Shown: positions 6,355 to 33,912 of the stretch, piece by piece
How the letters are laid out: every line of letters begins with the position of its first letter
How positions within the stretch are numbered: the stretch's first letter is position 1
Notes under the pieces: generated by a model
The model's database searches: none
What the model was told of the DNA's origin: nothing
Seen by the model: the letters and a program-made list of their open reading frames with translations, nothing else
Program-made: the position numbers and the translations under genes
Origin: Streptacidiphilus sp. P02-A3a
GTDB lineage: Bacteria; Actinomycetota; Actinomycetes; Streptomycetales; Streptomycetaceae
DNA length: 64,000 nt
Reading direction: 5' to 3'
Assembly: GCF_014084105.1 (NCBI RefSeq)
Contig: NZ_CP048289.1
Coordinates: 1,311,922 to 1,375,921 of the forward strand

Positions 6355-7377
6355 TCACACCTGGCCGTTCAGTTCGTTCAACTCCTGGGCGAGCCGACGG
6401 TATTCGCCGGCGTCCCCGTACGGGCTGGCAGCCACCGCGGCCAGGCGTCTGCGCAGCAGGTCACCCCGGTCGCCCAGCGGCATCACCGAGAGCGTCCTGG
6501 GCGCGGCCACGCCGGTCTTGAAGCGGGCGATGGTGGTCGCGACCATCGTGGACTCGGCCACGTGGTCCTCGCCCTCGCTGTTGCGGTTGCGGCTCCTGAT
6601 GCAGCCCTCGCCCCAGACCCGCAGGGCACTGCTGGCCATGATGATCCCGTCGCCGCCGTGCCGTGCCCCCTGCAGCTGCAACTGCCGCCGGGCATCGGCG
6701 CGGACGCCGTGCACAAGCTCGCTCCACCCTTTGACCTCGACGTTCTGCCAGGAATAGGTCTGCGACTGGGTCCGGTAGTCGTCGTGACGCACCCCGATCG
6801 ACATGCCCACCAGCAGTTCCACCGGGACCCAGCCCGAGGACAGCAGCTTGGCGAACCCCTGGCCGTCCAGATGTGAGGTGAACGGACGCCGGGGGCGGTG
6901 CGGACCCCGGGCCCGGACCGCTGTCCCGATGACCTTGAACTCCAGGCAGTTGGGCTGAGCCGCGAACGGCGCCATGGTCAGCTGGGCGGACACCACGCCG
7001 TCGCCGCCGAGGGCCTGGCATTCGGCGACCATCCGATCGAGGGCGGTGCGCCGCGCCTTCTCGAACACCGCGACCAGTCCGGCCGAGGGCGCTCCCTGGC
7101 CCGACAACGCGATCGGCGCGTTCCCGAGGTTGCCGTAACTGAAGCCGAACCCGGCGCCCTGGAACAGGCAGTCGTGGTAGCCCCAGTACGCTCCACTGCG
7201 GCCGACGTGGAAGACGGCGGAGCCCATGACCTGCCCCACCGGTTCGAAGCCGACCCCACGGATCGCGGCGAACTCGCCCGTGGACAGGGCGGAGGTCCAC
7301 GTTCCACTGCCCTTGATTTCGGCCATCCGCTCGGCGGCGGCCGGTGGCAACCCGACCCCGCTCCATGGCACCGACAT
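6355..7377 (-). CDS. Divergent tandem YbjQ/DUF74-like domain protein
   Basis: A 340-residue protein starting at ATG 7377 with AGGAG at 7382-7386. The first YbjQ-like repeat (WTSALSTGEFAAIRGVGF, VGQVMGSAVFHVG, then a Gly/Tyr/Phe-rich insertion QGAGFGFSYGNLG, the helix ARRTALDRMVAECQALGGDG, and LEFKVIGTAVRA) is clear. The second (FTSHLDGQGFAKLLSSGW, VELLVGMSIGVRH, RRQLQLQGARHGGDGIIM) is more diverged. A C-terminal extension of about 70 residues follows with no match that I know. No signal peptide or transmembrane segment is seen. It is first in the minus-strand group, with its promoter presumably in the gap shared with ahcY. The function is unknown. Confidence 0.78.
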   Translation of the reverse strand: MSVPWSGVGLPPAAAERMAEIKGSGTWTSALSTGEFAAIRGVGFEPVGQVMGSAVFHVGRSGAYWGYHDCLFQGAGFGFSYGNLGNAPIALSGQGAPSAGLVAVFEKARRTALDRMVAECQALGGDGVVSAQLTMAPFAAQPNCLEFKVIGTAVRARGPHRPRRPFTSHLDGQGFAKLLSSGWVPVELLVGMSIGVRHDDYRTQSQTYSWQNVEVKGWSELVHGVRADARRQLQLQGARHGGDGIIMASSALRVWGEGCIRSRNRNSEGEDHVAESTMVATTIARFKTGVAAPRTLSVMPLGDRGDLLRRRLAAVAASPYGDAGEYRRLAQELNELNGQV

Positions 7378-7888
7378 ACAGTCTCCTGATCTCGTCCCGC
7401 GGACCGGTTGAGGTGCGCCGCGTCGAACCCTAGAGCGAGGATCCGACCGCGCACACCGGGAATGTACGCCTGTGTTCCAGAACCATGACACAGGCCCCGC
7501 ACTGCGGATGTCGAGTCGTACAGCACCTTTACGAGTGGCTGGTCTCCGACCGCTTCTCGGGTACGGACGTGGCCCAGCCGTGTAGATTCGTATCCAGAAC
7601 CAGACGTCGCTGCTGATGGCGGTCGGTGGATTCGGGCGGACTCCTCGCTCATGGGCGAGGACCACCTGATCAGCCGAGGGAGAGAGGGCCTCCGACGCAC
7701 TGGGCCGGAACAGGTATGACAGTCGCGGGACGCGGTCGGGTAGGACCGAGCCGTCCCGGTCGCGCGGGCAAGGTCCCGCACGCTCTCGCACCCGCCGTGG
7801 CGGCGGGTGCTGATTGACGTACCCGATCGGCCCTGCCACTGCCCGCGCCGGATGCCACCGGCGAACAGACAGCGACGGAAGAAGAAAG
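7378..7888. promoter_or_regulatory. Divergent intergenic region and ahcY leader with hairpin
   Basis: These 511 bases without a gene separate the YbjQ-like operon (minus) from ahcY (plus). The half nearer ahcY contains a perfect 9-bp stem with a 5-nt loop at 7789-7811 (GCACCCGCC with GGCGGGTGC), not followed by a T run, and a smaller stem around 7745-7763. The arrangement resembles a structured leader, and ahcY is riboswitch-controlled in some bacteria, but I could not fit the SAH, SAM-II or SAM-IV consensus to it. Treat it as an unassigned structured leader. No coding region in it is convincing. Confidence 0.45.
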
Positions 7889-9337
<1,449 letters not shown>

Positions 9338-9363
9338 TCCGGTCCAGCAGCACAGCACGTCTT

Positions 9364-9397
9364 CGAGTGGCCGACGCCTGCGGGCGTCGGCCACTCG
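9364..9397 (+). terminator. ahcY terminator, 15-bp stem
   Basis: A perfect 15-bp inverted repeat (9364-9378 with 9383-9397) around a TGCG loop lies 26 bp after the ahcY stop. There is no T run, as is common for streptomycete terminators. Confidence 0.8.
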
Positions 9398-9421
9398 GCC
9401 ATCCGGACACAGGGACGCACC

Positions 9422-10063
9422 ATGCCCAGCGGGCGCTACTCCTTCTACGACACCCATGACGACACCCCTCTCGGTGAAGAACGCTTCAGTTGTGCGCCGG
9501 GCCCGTCGGGGTGGCGCTACACCGCGCAGACCTTCGCGACCGACGGCAGCCCCGACGGCTCCGTCGACCTCACTCTTGACTCCCGAAGCCGACCGCTGCG
9601 TCTCGAACTGCGCCACGCCGGCTGGCAGGTCCGCGGCGGCACGCTCGACGGCCTCACCTGGGTCCGCTCGCACAGCGCCGACACCGACGGCACGCGCACG
9701 CGCGAGGGCAGCGACCGGGCCCACGCCTTCTCCGGCCGTTCGCCGGCCTTCCTCATCGCGACCGCCCGACTGCTGCGGCTCCGCCCTGGCGGCAGCGCCC
9801 GCCTGCGAGTCGTCGCCCTGACCGATCCGGTGCTCGCCCCGCGCACCCTGGACCAGGGCTGGACCCTCGAAGCGATCGAATCACACCCCACTGACAGCGG
9901 ACCGCTGGACGTCGAGCGCTACCGCGTCGCCGACCTGGCCACAGGTGAGGAGGGAGTGGTTCACCTGGCCGGTGACGTGGTGCTCGCGGCCCCAGGAGTC
10001 GAACTGGAGCAGTTGGAGACGCCGCCGAGCAAAACCGTTGACGAGGGTGGGGAGCCCGGGTAG
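9422..10063 (+). CDS. Conserved hypothetical protein, beta-rich
   Basis: A 213-residue soluble protein that I do not recognise as a named family. It begins MPSGRYSFYDTHDD at ATG 9422 with GGGAC upstream. The sequence alternates short hydrophobic strands and charged turns (RYTAQTFATDG, SVDLTLDSRSRPLRLELRH, WQVRGGTL, RLRVVALTDP, VERYRVADLATGEEG), which suggests a beta-barrel or beta-sandwich ligand-binding fold. There are no cysteine motifs, signal peptide or membrane segments. The 3' end (stop TAG 10061-10063) overlaps the -10 box of the first candidate rRNA promoter. It is separated from ahcY by a terminator, so it probably has its own promoter. Confidence 0.65.
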   Translation: MPSGRYSFYDTHDDTPLGEERFSCAPGPSGWRYTAQTFATDGSPDGSVDLTLDSRSRPLRLELRHAGWQVRGGTLDGLTWVRSHSADTDGTRTREGSDRAHAFSGRSPAFLIATARLLRLRPGGSARLRVVALTDPVLAPRTLDQGWTLEAIESHPTDSGPLDVERYRVADLATGEEGVVHLAGDVVLAAPGVELEQLETPPSKTVDEGGEPG

Positions 10064-10112
10064 GTTCGAGCGGTTGCCCGGATTGGACAGTCAGCGAGGT
10101 CCGGAGTAGTCT
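10038..10112 (+). promoter_or_regulatory. Candidate rRNA operon promoters P1 and P2
   Basis: P1 is TTGACG (10038-10043), 17 bp, TAGGTT (10061-10066); its upstream part lies inside the end of the preceding gene. P2 is TTGGAC (10083-10088), 18 bp, TAGTCT (10107-10112). Both fit the vegetative HrdB-type consensus, and tandem promoters are normal for streptomycete rrn operons. Confidence 0.6.
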
Positions 10113-10231
10113 CGAACACCTCGCGCTTCAAGAGGCATCGAAATTCAGCACGCATCAGGGCAGAAATGCCGGATGAATGCTGTCCCGAAGCTGAAGGAGC
10201 GTGCACCGCGAAAGCGGTCCGGAAAGCCTGA

Positions 10232-10324
10232 TAAGGTCCTCCGGAAGGGCAGCGGAAGTTGCCTTCGACCTAAGGTTTGAAACGAAAAGCTCCGGTTCGC
10301 CGGGGGATTCGGATCTGCTAAGGT
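10232..10324 (+). promoter_or_regulatory. Three TAAGGT boxes, further candidate rrn promoters
   Basis: Identical TAAGGT hexamers occur at 10232-10237, 10271-10276 and 10319-10324. Each is preceded by a TCCGG element, and the last two continue as TAAGGTTT followed by GAACGAA or GAAACGAA. They look like -10 boxes of additional rrn promoters, but no good -35 box is present, so an alternative or activator-dependent use is possible. Confidence 0.5.
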
Positions 10325-10388
10325 TTAGAACGAAGAACGAAGCGCCTGGAGAGACCGGTGAAAGGGTCTTGAAGGAAGCGTCCGTTCC

Positions 10389-10403
10389 TTGAGAACTCAA
10401 CAG
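10389..10403 (+). promoter_or_regulatory. rRNA leader antitermination-type box
   Basis: TTGAGAACTCAACAG matches the conserved actinobacterial rrn leader element associated with boxA-type antitermination. A near copy, TTGAGAACTGCACAG, lies in the 16S-23S spacer at 12356-12370. The rest of 10404-10563 is rRNA leader with no gene. Confidence 0.6.
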
Positions 10404-10563
10404 CGTGCCAAAAGTCAACGCCAGATATGTTGATACCCCGTCCGTTGATCGGACGAGGTTCCTTTGATGCACAAAACACTAGCGAGGACGCAGTGCACGG
10501 GATCGGCTATTCCGCCGGTTGCTGTGCCGCTCAACGCGTGTGGTGACCCGATTACGGGTAATC

Positions 10564-15509
<4,946 letters not shown>

Positions 15510-15588
15510 AGTTGCTACGCGTCCACTGTGTTGTTCTGAAGGAACGACCCCCGCTCCGTGAGGAGTGGTGTGCGGTCAACTTCATAGT

Positions 15589-15708
15589 GTTTCGGTGGTC
15601 ATAGCGTGAGGGAAACGCCCGGTTACATCCCGAACCCGGAAGCTAAGCCTCATAGCGCCGATGGTACTGCAGGGGGGACCCTGTGGGAGAGTAGGACGCT
15701 GCCGAACA
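15589..15708 (+). rRNA. rrf: 5S ribosomal RNA
   Basis: A 120-nt RNA with the typical GGTGGTCATAGCG start, CCCGAACCCGGAAG loop and closing helix (GTTTCGG paired near the 3' end with CCGAACA). It lies about 80 bp after the 23S gene in the same operon. Confidence 0.95.
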
Positions 15709-24572: not shown

Positions 24573-25772
24573 TCAGCCGCCCGCCAGCAGCCGGTCGAGC
24601 ACAGGGCGGAGCGATTCGTCGGGCAGGCGCTCGACCCGGACGCTGTCGCAGCCCACCCAGCGGGCGGCCTCGTTCAGCGCGGTCGCGAGCGCGTCCAGCT
24701 GCCCGGGCGAGTCGAGCGACACCTGTCGGGCGACGAGGGTCCGGCCCTCGCGAGCCGGATCGACCCGGCCCACCAGTCGGCCGCCGGTCAGCAGCGGCAT
24801 GGCGAAGTAGCCGTGCACGCGCTTCTCCTTGGGGGTGTAGGCCTCCAGCCGGTGGGTGAGGCCGAAGATCCGCTCGGTCCTGGCGCGGTCCCAGACCAGC
24901 GAGTCGAACGGGGACAGCAGGGTGGTGCGGTGGCGTCCGCGGGGCGCGGTCTCCAGCGCCGCCGGGTCGGCCCAGGCGGTGGCGGCGGCGCCGTCCCGCC
25001 CCCAGCCCTGGACCCGCACCGGGACCAGTCCGGAGTCCGCCAGCGAGGCGGTGATCTGCTGGGACTTCAGCCGGTGGTAGTCGGCGAGGTCCTTGGCGGT
25101 GGCGACGCCGAGAGCCGCGCCGGCCTGCCGCAGCAGCTGCCGCAGGCAGGCCGCGTCGTCGGGCTCGGCGTTCAGCAGTGCGCCCGGCACCGCGCGCTCG
25201 GCCAGGTCGTAGACCCGTTTCCAGGAGCGGCGCTCGGCGCAGACGACCTGACCGGTGTCCAGCAGCCACTCCACGGCGATCTTGGTCTCGGACCAGTCCC
25301 ACCACTCGCCGCCGCGCTTGGCACCGCCGAGTTCGGTGGCGGTGAGCGGGCCGTCCGCGCGCAGCCGGGCCAGGACCTCGGCGCAGGAGCGTTCGGCGTC
25401 CTGCATCCGGTGCCAGCGGTGGCCGCGGTCGAGGAAGGCGCGTCGGCGGAAGCCGAACAGCGGCCATTCCTCGATGGGCAGCACGCAGGCGGCATGGGAC
25501 CAGTACTCGAAGGCGGTGCCGGCGCCCCAGTAGGCGGATTCGACCTCGGTCCGGCCCACCGGCCCGAGCCGGGCATAGGGGACCAGTTCGTGCGAGCGGG
25601 CCAGCACCGAGATGGTGTCCAACTGCACCGCGCCCAGATGCCGCAGCACACCGCGTACCCCGGCCCGGCGATCGGGTGCGCCGAGCAGTCCCTGGGCGCG
25701 CAGGGCGAGGCGCCGGGCCTCGTCGGCGGTGAGGACGAGGGTCGGCGCGGGGACGGCGGAGTCGGTACTCAT
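24573..25772 (-). CDS. YcaQ/AlkX-type DNA glycosylase (winged-helix family)
   Basis: A 399-residue protein of the HTH_42/YcaQ family, whose characterised members unhook interstrand DNA crosslinks and excise bulky alkylated bases. It has the N-terminal winged-helix region, the catalytic Q-x-D motif as VQLDTISVLARSHEL (Gln-Leu-Asp), the WSHAACVLPIEEWPLF segment, RTTLLSPFDSLVWDRAR and the GYFAMPLLTGGRLVGRVDPA C-terminal part. All are typical of the AlkX/YcaQ branch, which uses QxD; the AlkZ branch uses QxQ. I place the start at ATG 25772; the open frame reaches 25 codons further upstream with no conservation. It is divergent from the pelF-like gene and probably monocistronic. Confidence 0.86.
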   Translation of the reverse strand: MSTDSAVPAPTLVLTADEARRLALRAQGLLGAPDRRAGVRGVLRHLGAVQLDTISVLARSHELVPYARLGPVGRTEVESAYWGAGTAFEYWSHAACVLPIEEWPLFGFRRRAFLDRGHRWHRMQDAERSCAEVLARLRADGPLTATELGGAKRGGEWWDWSETKIAVEWLLDTGQVVCAERRSWKRVYDLAERAVPGALLNAEPDDAACLRQLLRQAGAALGVATAKDLADYHRLKSQQITASLADSGLVPVRVQGWGRDGAAATAWADPAALETAPRGRHRTTLLSPFDSLVWDRARTERIFGLTHRLEAYTPKEKRVHGYFAMPLLTGGRLVGRVDPAREGRTLVARQVSLDSPGQLDALATALNEAARWVGCDSVRVERLPDESLRPVLDRLLAGG

Positions 25773-26313
25773 GGATGCCACAGTAGGACCGGGCACTGAC
25801 ACATCCGGGGCCGAGGGCCCGTGTCCCATTCGGGCGAATGCAAACACAGTCTGAGACGTCTCACTCGTATGAGTGACATAACCGGTGAAGTCCAGGAAAG
25901 GCGCCTGAACTGTCAGCCGGGGCTCCTAGCATCTGACTGCGGGCGCAGGAGTCGCGGGGGCGACAGGGGGAGGGACCGGGGCTGTGTCCCGGAGTGGTGG
26001 CGCGCACAGGGTCTGCGGACAGGGCCTGCGGACAGACCCGGTGAGGCATCGGCGAGTTCGGCAACCACCCACACACATGCCAGGTGAGCCAGGAACGGCC
26101 GCAGCCGGGGAGCAGTCATGCCCGGACCGGTCCGTGCGCGGGGGAACCGCGTCCGGACGGTCGGGGCCGGGCTTCCTGGAATCGGACGCCGGCGGATAGC
26201 CGCAGCAGTCAGTCCAGTCAGCAGCAGCCAGCGATCGCACCGCATCCGGGACGCCAGGTGGGCGGCTCGGCCACGCCATGGCGACTCGCCGAAAGCCGGA
26301 GGGGGCACACGCA
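25773..26313. other. Large divergent intergenic region before the pelF-like gene
   Basis: These 541 bases hold no convincing gene. They contain the palindrome at 25861-25876 and, 28 bp after it, a possible promoter for the pelF-like cluster: CTGAAC (25905-25910), 16 bp, TAGCAT (25927-25932). If real, the cluster mRNA would have a leader of about 375 nt. The leader has several GC-rich short repeats (for example GCGGACAGGGCCTGCGGACAG near 26014-26034) but no structure that I can name. Confidence 0.5.
25861..25876. promoter_or_regulatory. 16-bp palindrome TCACT-N6-AGTGA, copy 2
   Basis: TCACTCGTATGAGTGA, with 6-bp half sites here. It is centred about 70 bp upstream of the inferred start point of the pelF-like cluster, a position suited to an activator. 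It shares both half sites with the copies at 4874-4889 and 34640-34655. Confidence 0.5.
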
Positions 26314-27792
26314 ATGACGAACGGACCTGTCGAGGTCACCTTGCTCACCGAGGGCACCTACCCCTATGTGCACGGCGGGGTGAGCGTCTGGTGCGACCAA
26401 CTGGTGCAGGGCATGCCGGATGTGCGCTTCCATGTGCTCGGGATCACCGGCAACGGACGCGAGCCGCATGTGTGGGAGCTACCGCCGCAGGTCGCGTCGG
26501 TCAGTTCCGCGCCGTTATGGGGCCGCACCCCCGGTGGCGCGGCCCCGCGCGGGCGGGTGCTGCGCCGTTTCCTCGCGGGCTACGAGCGGTTTCTGCTCGC
26601 GCTGCTCGACCGCGACTTCGAGCACCACTTCGCCGACGAGCTCTACGAACTGGCCGAGTTCGCACTGACCGGCGGCTCGCTCACGGCCGCCCTGCGCAGC
26701 GAGGGGGCGCTGCGCTCGCTCCAGGCCCTGTGGTCCCGCCCGTTCCTGGCCACGCACGCCGCCAGACCCACCCTCCAGGACGCGCTGCAGGCCACCGACC
26801 TGCTGGAACACGCGCTGAGACCGCTGGCCCTGCAGCCGCCGAGCCGAGGGGTGGCGCACGCGGTCACCGGCGGCCTCGCGGTGCTGCCGGGGCTGACCGC
26901 GCGGCGCTTCCACGGCGTGCCGCTGCTGCTCTCGGAACACGGCATCTACCTGCGCGAGCGCTATCTCAGCTACCGCACCGCCCCCTACCGCTGGCCGGTC
27001 AAGGCGCTCATCCTCGGCTTCTTCCGGCTGCTCGCCACCGAGGGCTACCGGGGGGCTGATCTGATCACGCCGTGCAACCGCTACAACCGCCGCTGGGAGG
27101 AACGCGGCGGCTGCGACCCGCAACGGATCCGGACCATCTACAACGGGGTCGATCCCGAACTCTTCCCCTTCGCCGGTCCGGAGCCGGAGGCGCCGACGCT
27201 CACCTGGGCCGGGCGGATCGACCCGATCAAGGACCTGGAGACCCTGATCCGGGCCTTCGCCCTGGTCCAGGCGGAGCTCCCGGCGGCCAGGCTGCGCCTG
27301 TTCGGCGGGGTCCCGGCCGGGGGAGAGGCCTACCGGGAGCAACTGGACCAATTGACGGCGGAGCTGGGCGTCACCGGGCGGGTGACCTTCGAGGGCCGGA
27401 TCGACACCGTCCGCCACGCCTACGCGGCCGGGAGCGTGGTCATGCTCTCCAGCATCTCCGAGGGTTTCCCGTTCAGCCTGATCGAGGCCATGGCCTGCGG
27501 GCGGGCCACGGTCTCCACGGACGTCGGCGGGGTCCGCGAGGCAGTCGGCGACACCGGCCTGGTGGTGCCGCCGCGCGAGCCGGAGACCATGGCGCGGGCC
27601 GCCCTCGGCCTGCTCCGTGATCCGGCCCGGCGCACGGCCCTGGGCAGCGCGGCCCGCGAGCGGGTGCTCGCACAGTTCACCGTCGAGCGCACCGTCGCCA
27701 CCTTCCGCAGCCTCTACCGGGCACTGCTGGACGAGCCCGGGGCCACCAGCGTCTCGGCGATGGAGCCGACCCTGGCGGGGTGCGGCGGATGA
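26314..27792 (+). CDS. PelF-like GT4 glycosyltransferase (DUF3492 type)
   Basis: A 492-residue cytoplasmic GT-B glycosyltransferase. The N-terminus VEVTLLTEGTYPYVHGGVSVW is the DUF3492/PelF signature; the region LLLSEHGIYLRERYL and the nucleotide-sugar domain (IYNGVDPELF, WAGRIDPIKDLETLI, LFGG) follow. The GT4 EX7E motif is Glu383-GFPFSLI-Glu391. PelF polymerises the galactosamine-rich Pel polysaccharide from UDP-GalNAc in Gram-negative bacteria, and PelF-like enzymes occur in Gram-positive pel clusters. The start is ATG 26314 with GGAGGGGG at 26299-26306; 12 upstream codons are open but unsupported. The stop overlaps the next start (ATGA), so the two are translationally coupled. The substrate is inferred from family and neighbours. 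Confidence 0.85.
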   Translation: MTNGPVEVTLLTEGTYPYVHGGVSVWCDQLVQGMPDVRFHVLGITGNGREPHVWELPPQVASVSSAPLWGRTPGGAAPRGRVLRRFLAGYERFLLALLDRDFEHHFADELYELAEFALTGGSLTAALRSEGALRSLQALWSRPFLATHAARPTLQDALQATDLLEHALRPLALQPPSRGVAHAVTGGLAVLPGLTARRFHGVPLLLSEHGIYLRERYLSYRTAPYRWPVKALILGFFRLLATEGYRGADLITPCNRYNRRWEERGGCDPQRIRTIYNGVDPELFPFAGPEPEAPTLTWAGRIDPIKDLETLIRAFALVQAELPAARLRLFGGVPAGGEAYREQLDQLTAELGVTGRVTFEGRIDTVRHAYAAGSVVMLSSISEGFPFSLIEAMACGRATVSTDVGGVREAVGDTGLVVPPREPETMARAALGLLRDPARRTALGSAARERVLAQFTVERTVATFRSLYRALLDEPGATSVSAMEPTLAGCGG

Positions 27793-29222
27793 GCGCGATC
27801 CTGGAACTCCTGCCCGGACTGCGGCTGTCCCCGCTGTCCCCACCGTTGCCCCGGCCGACCACGACCGCTGCCGCCGGGGCAGCGGACGGCACCCTGCCGG
27901 ACGATCCGGCCCGGGAGGCGGCAGCCCGCTTCGGTGGGATCGCGGCGGCAGCCGTGCACCCCTTCGAGGTGGCTGCGGCCATCGAGGCCGAGGGCGTGAC
28001 AGACCGTCAAGTCCAGCGCCACTACGGCCGGATGGACGCCTTCGAACTCGCCGAAGAGCTCTACGCGGAGACCCCGAGGGACTATCCCGAGCCGGAGCCG
28101 ACACCTTCGCCGTGGAGCGCGCCGCTGTCCGCGAGCCTGCTCCGGGGGCTGGTGTACGCGCTGCCCGGGCTGGCCTTCCCGCTGGGCAGACCGATGCTCA
28201 CCGGCCCGGCCGACCGGGGCGGCCTGCCACACGGGACCATCGCGCTGGCGACCTCGCTGCTGCTGTGCTGGGCCTGGAACCAGGGGCTCGCCCACCGCGC
28301 GCACCTGTGGCTCGGGCGTGGCGGGCAGCTCTCGGCCGAACGCTGCCTGCGGCGCGGCGCCATGGCCGGGGCGGTGCTCGGCACCTGCGGCGCGCTGCTC
28401 GCGGGGCTGCTCACCGGTCGGCAGATCGACGACGTGCTGATCTTCTGTGTCGGACAGTCGGCCTACATGGGCGCCTCCTGCGTGCTGCTGGTGCTCGGCC
28501 GGGAGTCCGAACTGCTCGGCGCGCTCGCTCCGGCCGCACTCGGTGGCGCGGCGGTCCTGCTCGGGTTGCTCCCGGCGATACCCGAGCTCTCGTCGCTGCT
28601 GCTGGTTACGCTGCTGCTGGCCCTCGGCCAGGCCGCGCGGGCGCTGCGCGGCTGCCGCGACGGGAGCGAAGCCGAGGTCGATGATCCCCTGCCCCCGCTG
28701 TACGGATCGCTGCCGCACGGGCTGTTCGGGCTGGCGACAGCGCTGCTCACGCTGGGGACGGCACTGCGAGGCAAGCATGTCGAGGTGGCGCCGATGGTCG
28801 CGCTGACCCTGAGCATGGGCCCCGCCGAGTGGCTGCTCTACGGTTACCGCAGTCGTATCCACCACGCGCTGCGGACGGCGGCGAGCGCCCGGGCGTTCGC
28901 CCTGCGCTCGGTCCACTCGCTGCTCGTGGGGCTGGGCAGCTACCTGGGGATACTCGCGGCGCTGGGGGCTGTGCTCGGGATCGCCCTGGCCGGGCTCCCG
29001 TTCGGGCCGCAGCTCACCGGGCTGCTGCTGTTGGGGGCGGCGGTCTGGACCGCGCTGCTGCTCCAGGCGCTCGGATCGGCCTGGCTCGCGGCCGGGATCT
29101 GCGCCCCGGCGGCCGTCGCGACGCTGGCCGGGGTCGGCATGACGACGGTGGGCGGGGTGGCGGCGGCAGTACTGCTGCTCGTCGCCTGCGGCACCCTCGG
29201 GCGGGTGACCGTGCACCGTTGA
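27789..29222 (+). CDS. Polytopic membrane protein, candidate polysaccharide exporter
   Basis: A 477-residue protein. About 110 N-terminal residues are cytoplasmic (EAEGVTDRQVQRHYGRMDAF, AEELYAETPRDYPEPEP); about 11-12 hydrophobic segments follow (for example TIALATSLLLCWAWNQGLA, AMAGAVLGTCGALLAGLL, VLIFCVGQSAYMGASCVLLV, LLLGAAVWTALLLQALGSA). I do not recognise a named family. Its place directly after a PelF-like transferase, its length (PelG is about 456 residues) and the number of segments suggest that it takes the PelG transporter role, but I see no clear PelG sequence motif. ATG 27789 overlaps the upstream stop as ATGA, so it is coupled to it. A decisive test would be a profile comparison with PelG and the MOP superfamily. 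Confidence 0.7.
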   Translation: MSAILELLPGLRLSPLSPPLPRPTTTAAAGAADGTLPDDPAREAAARFGGIAAAAVHPFEVAAAIEAEGVTDRQVQRHYGRMDAFELAEELYAETPRDYPEPEPTPSPWSAPLSASLLRGLVYALPGLAFPLGRPMLTGPADRGGLPHGTIALATSLLLCWAWNQGLAHRAHLWLGRGGQLSAERCLRRGAMAGAVLGTCGALLAGLLTGRQIDDVLIFCVGQSAYMGASCVLLVLGRESELLGALAPAALGGAAVLLGLLPAIPELSSLLLVTLLLALGQAARALRGCRDGSEAEVDDPLPPLYGSLPHGLFGLATALLTLGTALRGKHVEVAPMVALTLSMGPAEWLLYGYRSRIHHALRTAASARAFALRSVHSLLVGLGSYLGILAALGAVLGIALAGLPFGPQLTGLLLLGAAVWTALLLQALGSAWLAAGICAPAAVATLAGVGMTTVGGVAAAVLLLVACGTLGRVTVHR

Positions 29223-29223
29223 G

Positions 29224-30015
29224 ATGACAGGAGGAACCGCAGCTGGACGATCAAGTGACATAGCGTCAGAGAGTGTCAGGAAAAGTGGAGTTGAGCACGT
29301 GGAGTTGACGGAGGACGGCGACGCCGCCGGAGCCGTCGGCGGGCGGCTGTTCGTCCCGCTGTACGCCTACCCCGGGACCGAGCCCGAGCTCTGGGCGCAG
29401 GTGGTGGCGAACGCCGGGGCGTTGTGCGGGCTGGTCCTCAATCCGCACAGCGGGCCGGGGGGCGCCGTGGAGCCGGAGTTCGCGGCGGCGGCCGAACGGC
29501 TGCGCACGGCCGGAGTGCCGCTGTACGGCTATGTGGACACCGGCTACGGCCGTCGGCAGCACCGGGAGGTGGTCGCGGACGTCGAGCGGCACCGGGACTG
29601 GTACGACGTGGACGGGGTCTTCTTCGACCAGGTCGGGTCCGCCCCGGAGCTGTTGCCGCACTACCGGCGGCTGGCGGTCGCGGCGCGCTCGCTGGACGCG
29701 TCGCGGGTGGCGTTCAACCCCGGGGTCCACCCGCACCCCGGGTTCGCCGAGGTGGCGGACCTGCTGATCACCTTCGAAGGGAGCTGGGAGCAGTACCGGG
29801 AACTGCGGGTGCCGGAGTGGACGGCGGGCTTCCCGGCGCGGCGCTTCGGGCATCTGGTGCACGGGACACCGGTCGGCCGATGCGCGGCGGTGTCGGACAT
29901 GGCACGGCGGCGCCATGCGGCGGTCAGCTATGCCACTCCGGGCAGCGGGCCCAACCCCTGGGGTGTGCTGATGCCGGAGTTGTGCCGTACTCGGCAGATC
30001 TCGGGGCAGTGTTGA
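29224..30015 (+). CDS. Spherulin-4-like glycoside hydrolase (GH135-type)
   Basis: A 263-residue protein of the spherulation-specific family 4. The core starts at GGRLFVPLYAYPGTEPELW and goes through ALCGLVLNPHSGPGG, VPLYGYVDTGYGRR, DGVFFDQVG, VAFNPGVHPHPGF and LLITFEGSWEQY, which trace a TIM barrel with the acidic residues expected near the active site. The fungal member Sph3 (GH135) cuts alpha-1,4-GalNAc in galactosaminogalactan. No signal peptide is visible, so a cytoplasmic location or another export route must be considered. ATG 29224 follows the previous stop by one base but has no ribosome binding site; GTG 29299 (HVELTEDG), preceded by AAAGTGGAG, is an alternative start. Confidence 0.82.
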   Translation: MTGGTAAGRSSDIASESVRKSGVEHVELTEDGDAAGAVGGRLFVPLYAYPGTEPELWAQVVANAGALCGLVLNPHSGPGGAVEPEFAAAAERLRTAGVPLYGYVDTGYGRRQHREVVADVERHRDWYDVDGVFFDQVGSAPELLPHYRRLAVAARSLDASRVAFNPGVHPHPGFAEVADLLITFEGSWEQYRELRVPEWTAGFPARRFGHLVHGTPVGRCAAVSDMARRRHAAVSYATPGSGPNPWGVLMPELCRTRQISGQC

Positions 30016-30887
30016 GTGTTCAGGGGTGGCCGCGCCGAGCCGCGCGGGTGCTCGACCGGTCCGGCCGGGCGGCGCTGCCGCGTGTCCTGCTGGCCTGTGT
30101 CCTGCTGCTGGCGGCGACCGCCTGCGGCGGCGGTACGAGCGGTGCCGCCCCCGGCCGCACCGCCTCGGCTGCCGGGGCCGGTGCGTGGGCTGGGTGGCGG
30201 CCGGCGGTGGGAACCAGCTGGCAGTGGCAGCTCAGCGGGCCGCTGGACACCCGGGTCGACGCCGCTGTCTACGACGTCGACGGCTTCACCACCAGCACCG
30301 CCCAGGTCGCCGCCCTGCACGCCGAGGGGCGGAAGGTGGTCTGCTACATCAGCGTGGGCGCGTACGAGGACTTCCGCCCCGACCGGCAGCGCTTTCCGGC
30401 GGTACTGCTGGGCGGGTCCGACGGCTGGCCGGGGGAACGCTGGCTGGACATCCGGCGGCTCGACCTGCTGGAGCCGATCATCGCGGCGCGGTTCGCCATG
30501 TGCCGGAGCAAGGGCTTCGACGGGGTCGAGCCGGACAACGTCGACGGCTACGCCAATGCCACCGGATTTCCGTTGACCGCCGCCGACCAGCTCGCCTTCA
30601 ACCGGATGGTGGCCCGGCTCGCGCACCAGCGGGGCCTGGCCGTGGCGCTGAAGAACGACCTCGACCAGGTGCCGCAGCTGGTCGGGGACTTCGATTTCGC
30701 CGTCGACGAACAGTGTGCGGAATACCAGGAGTGCGACGAACTGGTGCCCTTCATCGCGGCCGGAAAGGCCGTATTGGAAGCCGAGTACAACCTCCCCCGC
30801 CCGGCTTTCTGCGGTGCCGCCCGGCGGCTGCGGTTCAGTGCGATGCTCAAGCATCTCTCACTCGACGCCTGGCGTCAGGCATGCTGA
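30012..30887 (+). CDS. GH114 endo-alpha-1,4-polygalactosaminidase lipoprotein
   Basis: A 291-residue secreted lipoprotein. A signal sequence ends in the lipobox LLAATAC followed by GGG, then a Gly/Ala linker and a GH114-type TIM barrel: TSWQWQLSG, VDAAVYDVDGF, KVVCYISVGAYEDFRPDR, WLDIRRLDLL, FDGVEPDNVDGY, LAVALKNDLDQ, FDFAVDEQCAEYQECD. GH114 enzymes cleave alpha-1,4-linked galactosamine polymers (fungal Ega3). It would act outside the cell on the product of the cluster. No ATG fits; the likely start is TTG 30012, overlapping the previous stop as TTGA, with GTG 30048 as alternative. Both keep the signal sequence. Confidence 0.85.
   Translation: MSVQGWPRRAARVLDRSGRAALPRVLLACVLLLAATACGGGTSGAAPGRTASAAGAGAWAGWRPAVGTSWQWQLSGPLDTRVDAAVYDVDGFTTSTAQVAALHAEGRKVVCYISVGAYEDFRPDRQRFPAVLLGGSDGWPGERWLDIRRLDLLEPIIAARFAMCRSKGFDGVEPDNVDGYANATGFPLTAADQLAFNRMVARLAHQRGLAVALKNDLDQVPQLVGDFDFAVDEQCAEYQECDELVPFIAAGKAVLEAEYNLPRPAFCGAARRLRFSAMLKHLSLDAWRQAC

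Positions 30888-31143: not shown

Positions 31144-33912
<2,769 letters not shown>

Follow-up and report, generated by a model that had tools for sequence, protein, structure and literature searches.

What kind of polymer does a compact cluster of four genes in Streptacidiphilus sp. P02-A3a make, and to which known family of polysaccharide systems does it belong? The cluster lies in the stretch of DNA that we analysed, here called the window (G000:C1:1311922-1375921; 64,000 nucleotides of the 9.33 Mb genome; window coordinates are used throughout). A preliminary description had placed four tightly packed, partly overlapping genes at 26314-30887, encoding a glycosyltransferase (GT), a membrane protein, a spherulin-4 protein and a GH114 lipoprotein, and these coordinates and all four gene calls hold. 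It had read them as a minimal system for a polymer resembling Pel or galactosaminogalactan (GAG). Fungal GAG, which forms the sticky coat of Aspergillus, acts in biofilms and in virulence, and a bacterial origin has been proposed for its gene cluster. Our results indicate that the locus is probably an exopolysaccharide operon of GAG type, most of whose parts have homologues in the fungal GAG cluster, and support the idea of a compact cassette that makes, exports and trims such a polymer, with two hydrolases that have kept their catalytic Asp and Glu.

The window GT belongs to the DUF3492 family (192 bits on the Pfam model), has GT4 domains and carries the EX7E motif at E383/E391, as first described. 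It also scores over the cut-off of the NCBIfam PelF model (NF038011; 172 bits, cut-off 100), and to that extent it is PelF-like. Three PelF proteins of Pel operons reach 777, 834 and 349 bits on the same model, whereas GAG-type GTs reach 141-172. In a tree of 32 rows (14 of the 41 family GTs including that of the window, 7 plasmid GAG-type, 8 Pel-operon and 3 other GT4 enzymes), the GAG-type GTs form one clade (99/98) and the Pel-operon PelF proteins a separate one (100/97); the program flagged long branches for Thermus, Kocuria, Cetobacterium and the three outgroups. Grouping away from PelF, the outcome that the preliminary description had named as refuting its reading, thus counts against Pel and not against GAG. 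A kinship of the GT's partner with PelG did not appear: neither the window membrane protein nor four relatives matched PF16933, on which two PelG controls scored 498 and 192 bits. Because the GT clade is separate from true-Pel PelF and the partner is not PelG, the cluster is, judged by its sequences, GAG-type and not Pel, and Pel membership was rejected. NF038011, with its cut-off of 100, gives GAG-type GTs the name pelF in public records; the automatic label reaches a sister clade outside Pel operons.

At E 0.01 nothing in Pfam or NCBIfam matched the membrane protein. Between residues 113 and 469 its structure model shows 12 long helices, which settles for 12 the 11-12 segments first proposed, and there is also an N-terminal helical domain (residues about 26-94). 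Comparison with a structure aligner assigns the model to the 12-helix MATE/MOP exporter fold, and we regard the protein as a putative polymer exporter that by sequence is not PelG.

Both hydrolases matched the families named for them. The GH114 protein scored 280 bits on PF03537 and matched Ega3 (6ojb, 6oj1; E 7e-59), its D175 and E233 fall by spacing on Asp189/Glu247 of Ega3, and it has a lipobox with Cys38. By sequence it belongs to the endo-alpha-1,4-galactosaminidase family, and cleavage of a galactosamine chain is putative. The spherulin-4 protein scored 113 bits on PF12138, and its closest solved structure is Sph3 (5d6t, 5c5g; E 5e-11). In the alignment the catalytic pair of Sph3 falls on its D135 and E185, both of which are kept in 32/32 copies. 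PMC12054363 prints the pair of Sph3 as Asp196/Glu222; we infer that Asp196 is a misprint for Asp166, because the spacing of 56 in the aligned Sph3 chain fits Asp166/Glu222. No export signal was detected in the 32 copies (27 scored, highest mean hydropathy 1.45; the other five have 2-8 residues before the core), in the copies of Kocuria and S. californicus inspected by eye, or in four unlinked Streptacidiphilus copies. As a yardstick, guessed starts gave a lipobox in 22 of 35 GH114 proteins, the remaining 13 showing that guessed starts can miss signals; in some GH135 copies a signal cannot hide because they begin directly at the core. Since no copy examined has a secretion signal, the GH135-type protein probably acts inside the cell. 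It shares with GH135 the sequence match and the catalytic Asp/Glu, and it seemingly lacks the membrane-bound, outside-acting feature. The account of a cluster that exports and trims its product stands for the cassette, with the reservation that one of the two hydrolases probably works inside.

The genes are found together in many relatives. Of 200 family genomes, 170 match the membrane protein at E 0.001, a count that includes weak matches to a short distant paralogue. In an order survey of 60 genomes it had a match in 42, all in two of six genera, and in 0 of 15 genomes from the two other families. Among 40 family loci, chosen by the membrane protein from the matches listed, the GT was present in 40, an Agd3-like protein in 38 (not L032 and L033), spherulin in 31 and GH114 in 32. 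Because the GT and membrane protein are together in every one of these loci and the hydrolases in most, the four-gene association is not chance. A second, independent set was made up of the 80 best of 177 relatives, whose titles give Streptomyces for 77, Streptacidiphilus for 2 and 'Actinobacteria bacterium' for 1. In these named loci we counted 77 Agd3-like proteins at a threshold of 150 bits (the 78th at 147 bits, the last two at contig ends), 74 spherulin and 66 GH114 genes, 35 sugar-nucleotide modules and 2 secA genes; for the 68 flanked on either side by 6.5 kb or more the counts were 67, 63, 61, 30 and 2. Most often (32) the genes ran agd3-GT-membrane-spherulin-GH114; next came this arrangement with the module inserted behind the membrane gene (26). 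In Streptomyces the cassette is common, and versions occur in Kocuria, Deinococcus and Thermus. A Kocuria rosea plasmid typed as mobilizable (NZ_CP126484.1; L163, 5514-14582) holds the five-gene agd3-GT-membrane-spherulin-GH114 cassette, flanked by two transposase genes that share one protein accession, likely a mobile form of the cluster. On a Thermus brockianus plasmid (L165), a 234-aa protein without a Pfam match (11662-12366) occupies the usual spherulin-4 place, with the membrane protein on one side and a GH114 gene in reversed orientation on the other.

The Agd3-like protein of the relatives is secreted, roughly 680-780 aa long and encoded upstream of the GT. A profile of 19 such proteins matched the fungal deacetylase Agd3 (6nwz; E 1.6e-9), the Asp-Asp, HxxxH and a late His are conserved, and the Kocuria and Deinococcus relatives match Pfam Agd3 models, Kocuria below the curated cut-off. 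The relatives thus carry agd3 and about half of them also the sugar-nucleotide module, and the window locus, first called minimal, is not minimal by ancestry. An Agd3/CE18 gene is linked in 38/40 and 77/80 loci and absent from the cluster in the window, L032, L033 and L199. In 10 of 14 Streptacidiphilus genomes there is a single Agd3 match, located at the cluster; the window genome, G058, G050 and G070 have none there. No convincing agd3 remnant was found in the gap upstream of the window GT (best tblastn E 0.036, and 0.005 in a sister locus). These four genomes hold instead an unlinked Agd3-like homologue, about 1220 aa in three intact copies with conserved surroundings and fragmented in G070, whose genome is 76% complete. 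In 4/4 the CM2-type motif of this homologue is HTYDT, with Thr at the second His of HxxxH, and the H514A change in Agd3 left no detectable activity according to PMC7229062. Because the linked agd3 is absent and the unlinked homologue has Thr where Agd3 needs His514, we infer that deacetylation of the Agd3 kind has been lost in the sublineage of the window. Simple replacement of the cluster Agd3 by the unlinked protein is weakened by the same Thr. An alternating loss of Agd3 and GH135 in Streptacidiphilus was also considered and rejected, since each of the 14 genomes has just one spherulin-4 gene: in 7 it lies in the cluster, and the 7 without a linked copy carry it elsewhere.

The sugar-nucleotide module consists of a LegB-type 4,6-dehydratase, a nucleotidyltransferase and an NAD-dependent reductase-type gene. 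It was present in 22 of the 40 fetched loci (a 23rd, L068, has only a distant short-chain dehydrogenase/reductase (SDR) there) and in 35/80 named loci. The dehydratases score 453-478 bits on TIGR04180 (cut-off 475; among them 458, 478 and 454 bits) and 132-141 bits on galE (cut-off 262), and the motif TSE[TV]YG, which we take to be a mark of dehydratases, occurs in 27/27. A GT tree of 113 rows (the fetched set and the window, 41, with 72 of the 80 named loci, 8 being dropped for short flanks or no GT) had 54 rows with and 59 without the module and two changes with L068 included. Without L068 (112 rows; 54 with, 58 without) there was one change, against a shuffled mean of 37.6, at a Shimodaira-Hasegawa-like approximate likelihood ratio (SH-aLRT) support of 88 (not starred), in a tree made by a quick method and with a clustering of labels that is expected of any inherited cluster. 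This split of GT clades by module suggests two polymer chemistries, and it supports, short of proof, a specialisation of donors. It also bears on the reading that the same machinery handles another sugar, that is, another N-acetylhexosamine (HexNAc) or a mixed chain, for example with 6-deoxy-HexNAc where the module is present, so that the mechanism and not the composition would be GAG-like. The frequency of the module within the cluster, the dehydratase motif and the tracking of GT clades all favour this reading, whereas the module is missing from the clade of the window, a close LegB-type gene is absent from 11 of 14 Streptacidiphilus genomes (it is present in G050 and G074 and in pieces in G070), and the fungal enzymes of the Agd3, Sph3 and Ega3 types act on chains of N-acetylgalactosamine (GalNAc) and galactosamine. 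On balance we consider another sugar rather unlikely.

For a GAG-type operon, then, the following mechanism can be proposed. On the inner side of the membrane the DUF3492/GT4 enzyme would polymerise an amino sugar activated by uridine diphosphate (UDP), giving a chain with alpha-1,4 links. The donor would most likely be UDP-GalNAc from one of the GalE enzymes of the genome. The locus itself has no gene for a dedicated sugar-nucleotide epimerase; four GalE genes above the cut-off lie elsewhere. The MOP-fold protein, so assigned on a model, would carry the chain out, and the GH135-type protein, placed in the cytoplasm by its missing signal, may cut the acetylated chain there, setting its length or clearing stalled chains. 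The GH114 lipoprotein, with its signal and catalytic residues, would trim the chain on the outer face. In relatives the secreted Agd3-like enzyme would deacetylate the chain; in the sublineage of the window the polymer is predicted to be mostly acetylated and neutral, because agd3 is gone from the locus and the remaining Agd3-like protein has Thr for His514. As one combined picture, of inside cutting by GH135 beside the GT4 synthase and MOP exporter with outer trimming by GH114, of two chemistries (a GalNAc chain without the module, a 6-deoxy-HexNAc or LegB-route sugar with it) and of deacetylation given up for a neutral, acetylated chain in the sublineage of the window, this is possible and offered tentatively.

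Several observations weigh against the reading as a whole or in its parts. The Agd3-like proteins taken singly had no match in Pfam, NCBIfam or PDB, and only their profile matched Agd3. The unlinked Agd3-like protein occurs in 4/4 genomes without linked agd3 and 0/10 with it, a pattern that might mean replacement and that, among related genomes, represents few independent events; other deacetylases (CE4) may also serve instead. The known fungal relative of the GH114 protein prefers the deacetylated chain, and retention of GH114 fits poorly with loss of the deacetylase. In the spherulin-4 proteins the catalytic Asp is followed by Gln in 26/32 (including the window) and by Arg in 6/32, while Sph3 has Glu, presumably catalytic, which speaks against simple equivalence with Sph3. 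A fungal GH114 enzyme left Pel uncut (PMC12054363), and membership in GH114 does not fix the substrate. The hhalign probability of kinship between the membrane protein and PelG was 0.1, and the MOP fold is common also to WzxE and MurJ, which flip lipid-linked sugars.

The last point invites the explanation that the membrane protein flips a lipid-linked oligosaccharide and exports no growing chain, the product of the cluster being a cell-wall glycan or glycolipid. Near moeZ, a short paralogue lies next to another DUF3492 GT and an SDR gene, with no hydrolases, which is in keeping with this. However, the cluster has no gene for an initiating phosphosugar transferase, polymerase or ligase, and two endo-hydrolases point to a long chain; we judge the flippase improbable. 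The second locus itself (L185; G000:C1:1158001-1177000) has a GT at 7235-9010 (PF11997 104-107 bits; PelF model 74 bits, below the cut-off), the paralogue at about 9007-10014, an NAD-dependent epimerase-type SDR at 10145-11056 and MoeZ at 11181-12359, and many Streptomyces genomes have weak matches to a paralogue of this kind. That the hydrolases form a scavenging or attack system digesting fungal GAG in soil might be supposed from the closeness of the GH114 protein to Ega3, but every locus in which PelF was called contains the GT and the exporter, GH135 has no export signal and the window GH114 bears a lipoprotein signal, and this would be very surprising. That the cluster is a canonical Gram-positive Pel operon, for which only the NCBIfam name of the GT speaks, is hardly credible and was graded as already largely refuted, given the clade of the GT, the missing PelG, the lack of any match of the four window proteins to PelD, PelE or PelA models in Pfam and NCBIfam, and neighbours that are AlkZ-like and secA.

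The features are collected in Table 1. The GT and membrane-protein genes overlap by 4 bases, and the spherulin-4 gene has a possible alternative start at an in-frame GTG (29299). The position beside secA was described correctly, and this adjacency is a trait of Streptacidiphilus, the only two of the 80 named loci with secA both being Streptacidiphilus. An open reading frame (ORF) at 24813-25799 (+) was rejected as a gene, being an antisense frame of the AlkZ-like gene. Elsewhere in the window, 10063-15606 has only one ORF of at least 150 aa and may hold rRNA genes.

Table 1. Coordinates of the cluster, its neighbours and the unlinked Agd3-like homologue.
Feature	Position	Strand	Basis
AlkZ-like DNA glycosylase family, left neighbour (context)	24573-25847	-	family match
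Gap where 10/14 Streptacidiphilus genomes hold an agd3-like gene	25848-26313	.	no convincing remnant in window
GT4 glycosyltransferase, DUF3492 family, GAG-type clade, putative cytoplasmic polymer synthase	26314-27792	+	Pfam/NCBIfam, tree
12-helix membrane protein, MATE/MOP exporter fold, putative polymer exporter	27789-29222	+	structure model, fold comparison
Spherulin-4 / GH135-type hydrolase, no signal peptide	29224-30015	+	PF12138, Sph3 match
GH114 hydrolase, Ega3-like, lipoprotein signal	about 30012-30887	+	PF03537, Ega3 match; first codon uncertain
secA, right neighbour (context)	31144-33912	+	Pfam/NCBIfam
Unlinked Agd3-like protein, 1214 aa, Ig-type (He_PIG) domains	L075 8031-11675, G000:C1 about 8.704-8.708 Mb	-	homologue with Thr at the second His of the metal motif

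The cluster kind has already been reported in outline. PMC7229062 lists 45 bacterial species with Agd3 homologues. Of the 35 in its tree, it places 30 within or close to carbohydrate operons; besides a cytoplasmic GT, each of these has a multi-spanning membrane protein, GH114 is common and spherulin-4 occurs in some Actinobacteria. Horizontal transfer to fungi is proposed there. The two hydrolase types, first thought to be otherwise together only in a fungal cluster, were thus reported with agd3 homologues in Actinobacteria in 2020. Further background on known systems is given in PMC11356417. Among the papers listed by searches of the open-licence PMC literature we found no experimental work on a Streptomyces or Streptacidiphilus cluster of this kind and no description of agd3 loss, an inside GH135 or the split by module. 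The window shares the GT, membrane protein, GH114 and spherulin-4 with the operons of 2020 and differs from them by having no linked agd3 and an apparently internal GH135. With Pel operons (Gram-negative pelABCDEFG; Gram-positive pelDEADAFG, PMC7112168) it shares a DUF3492 GT4 followed by a 12-helix exporter-like protein, whereas the GT is of another clade, the membrane protein has no sequence kinship with PelG, and genes of the PelD, PelE and PelA types are missing. With the fungal GAG cluster uge3, gtb3, agd3, sph3 and ega3 of Aspergillus fumigatus (PMC4817252) it shares clustered GH135-type and GH114 hydrolases and a GT4 synthase; an Agd3-type deacetylase is common to the fungal cluster and the relatives of the window, not to the window, where GH135 is seemingly cytoplasmic and an epimerase gene is also missing from the cluster. 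Fungal Gtb3 is described as one transmembrane protein, whereas here synthase and membrane part are two proteins. In Streptacidiphilus and Streptomyces, which are harmless bacteria of soil, the synthase, exporter and hydrolases could be studied apart, unlike in the single fungal Gtb3, and the natural variants (agd3 present or absent, GH135 linked or moved, LegB-type module present or absent) are ready comparisons for deacetylation, inside cutting and sugar type.

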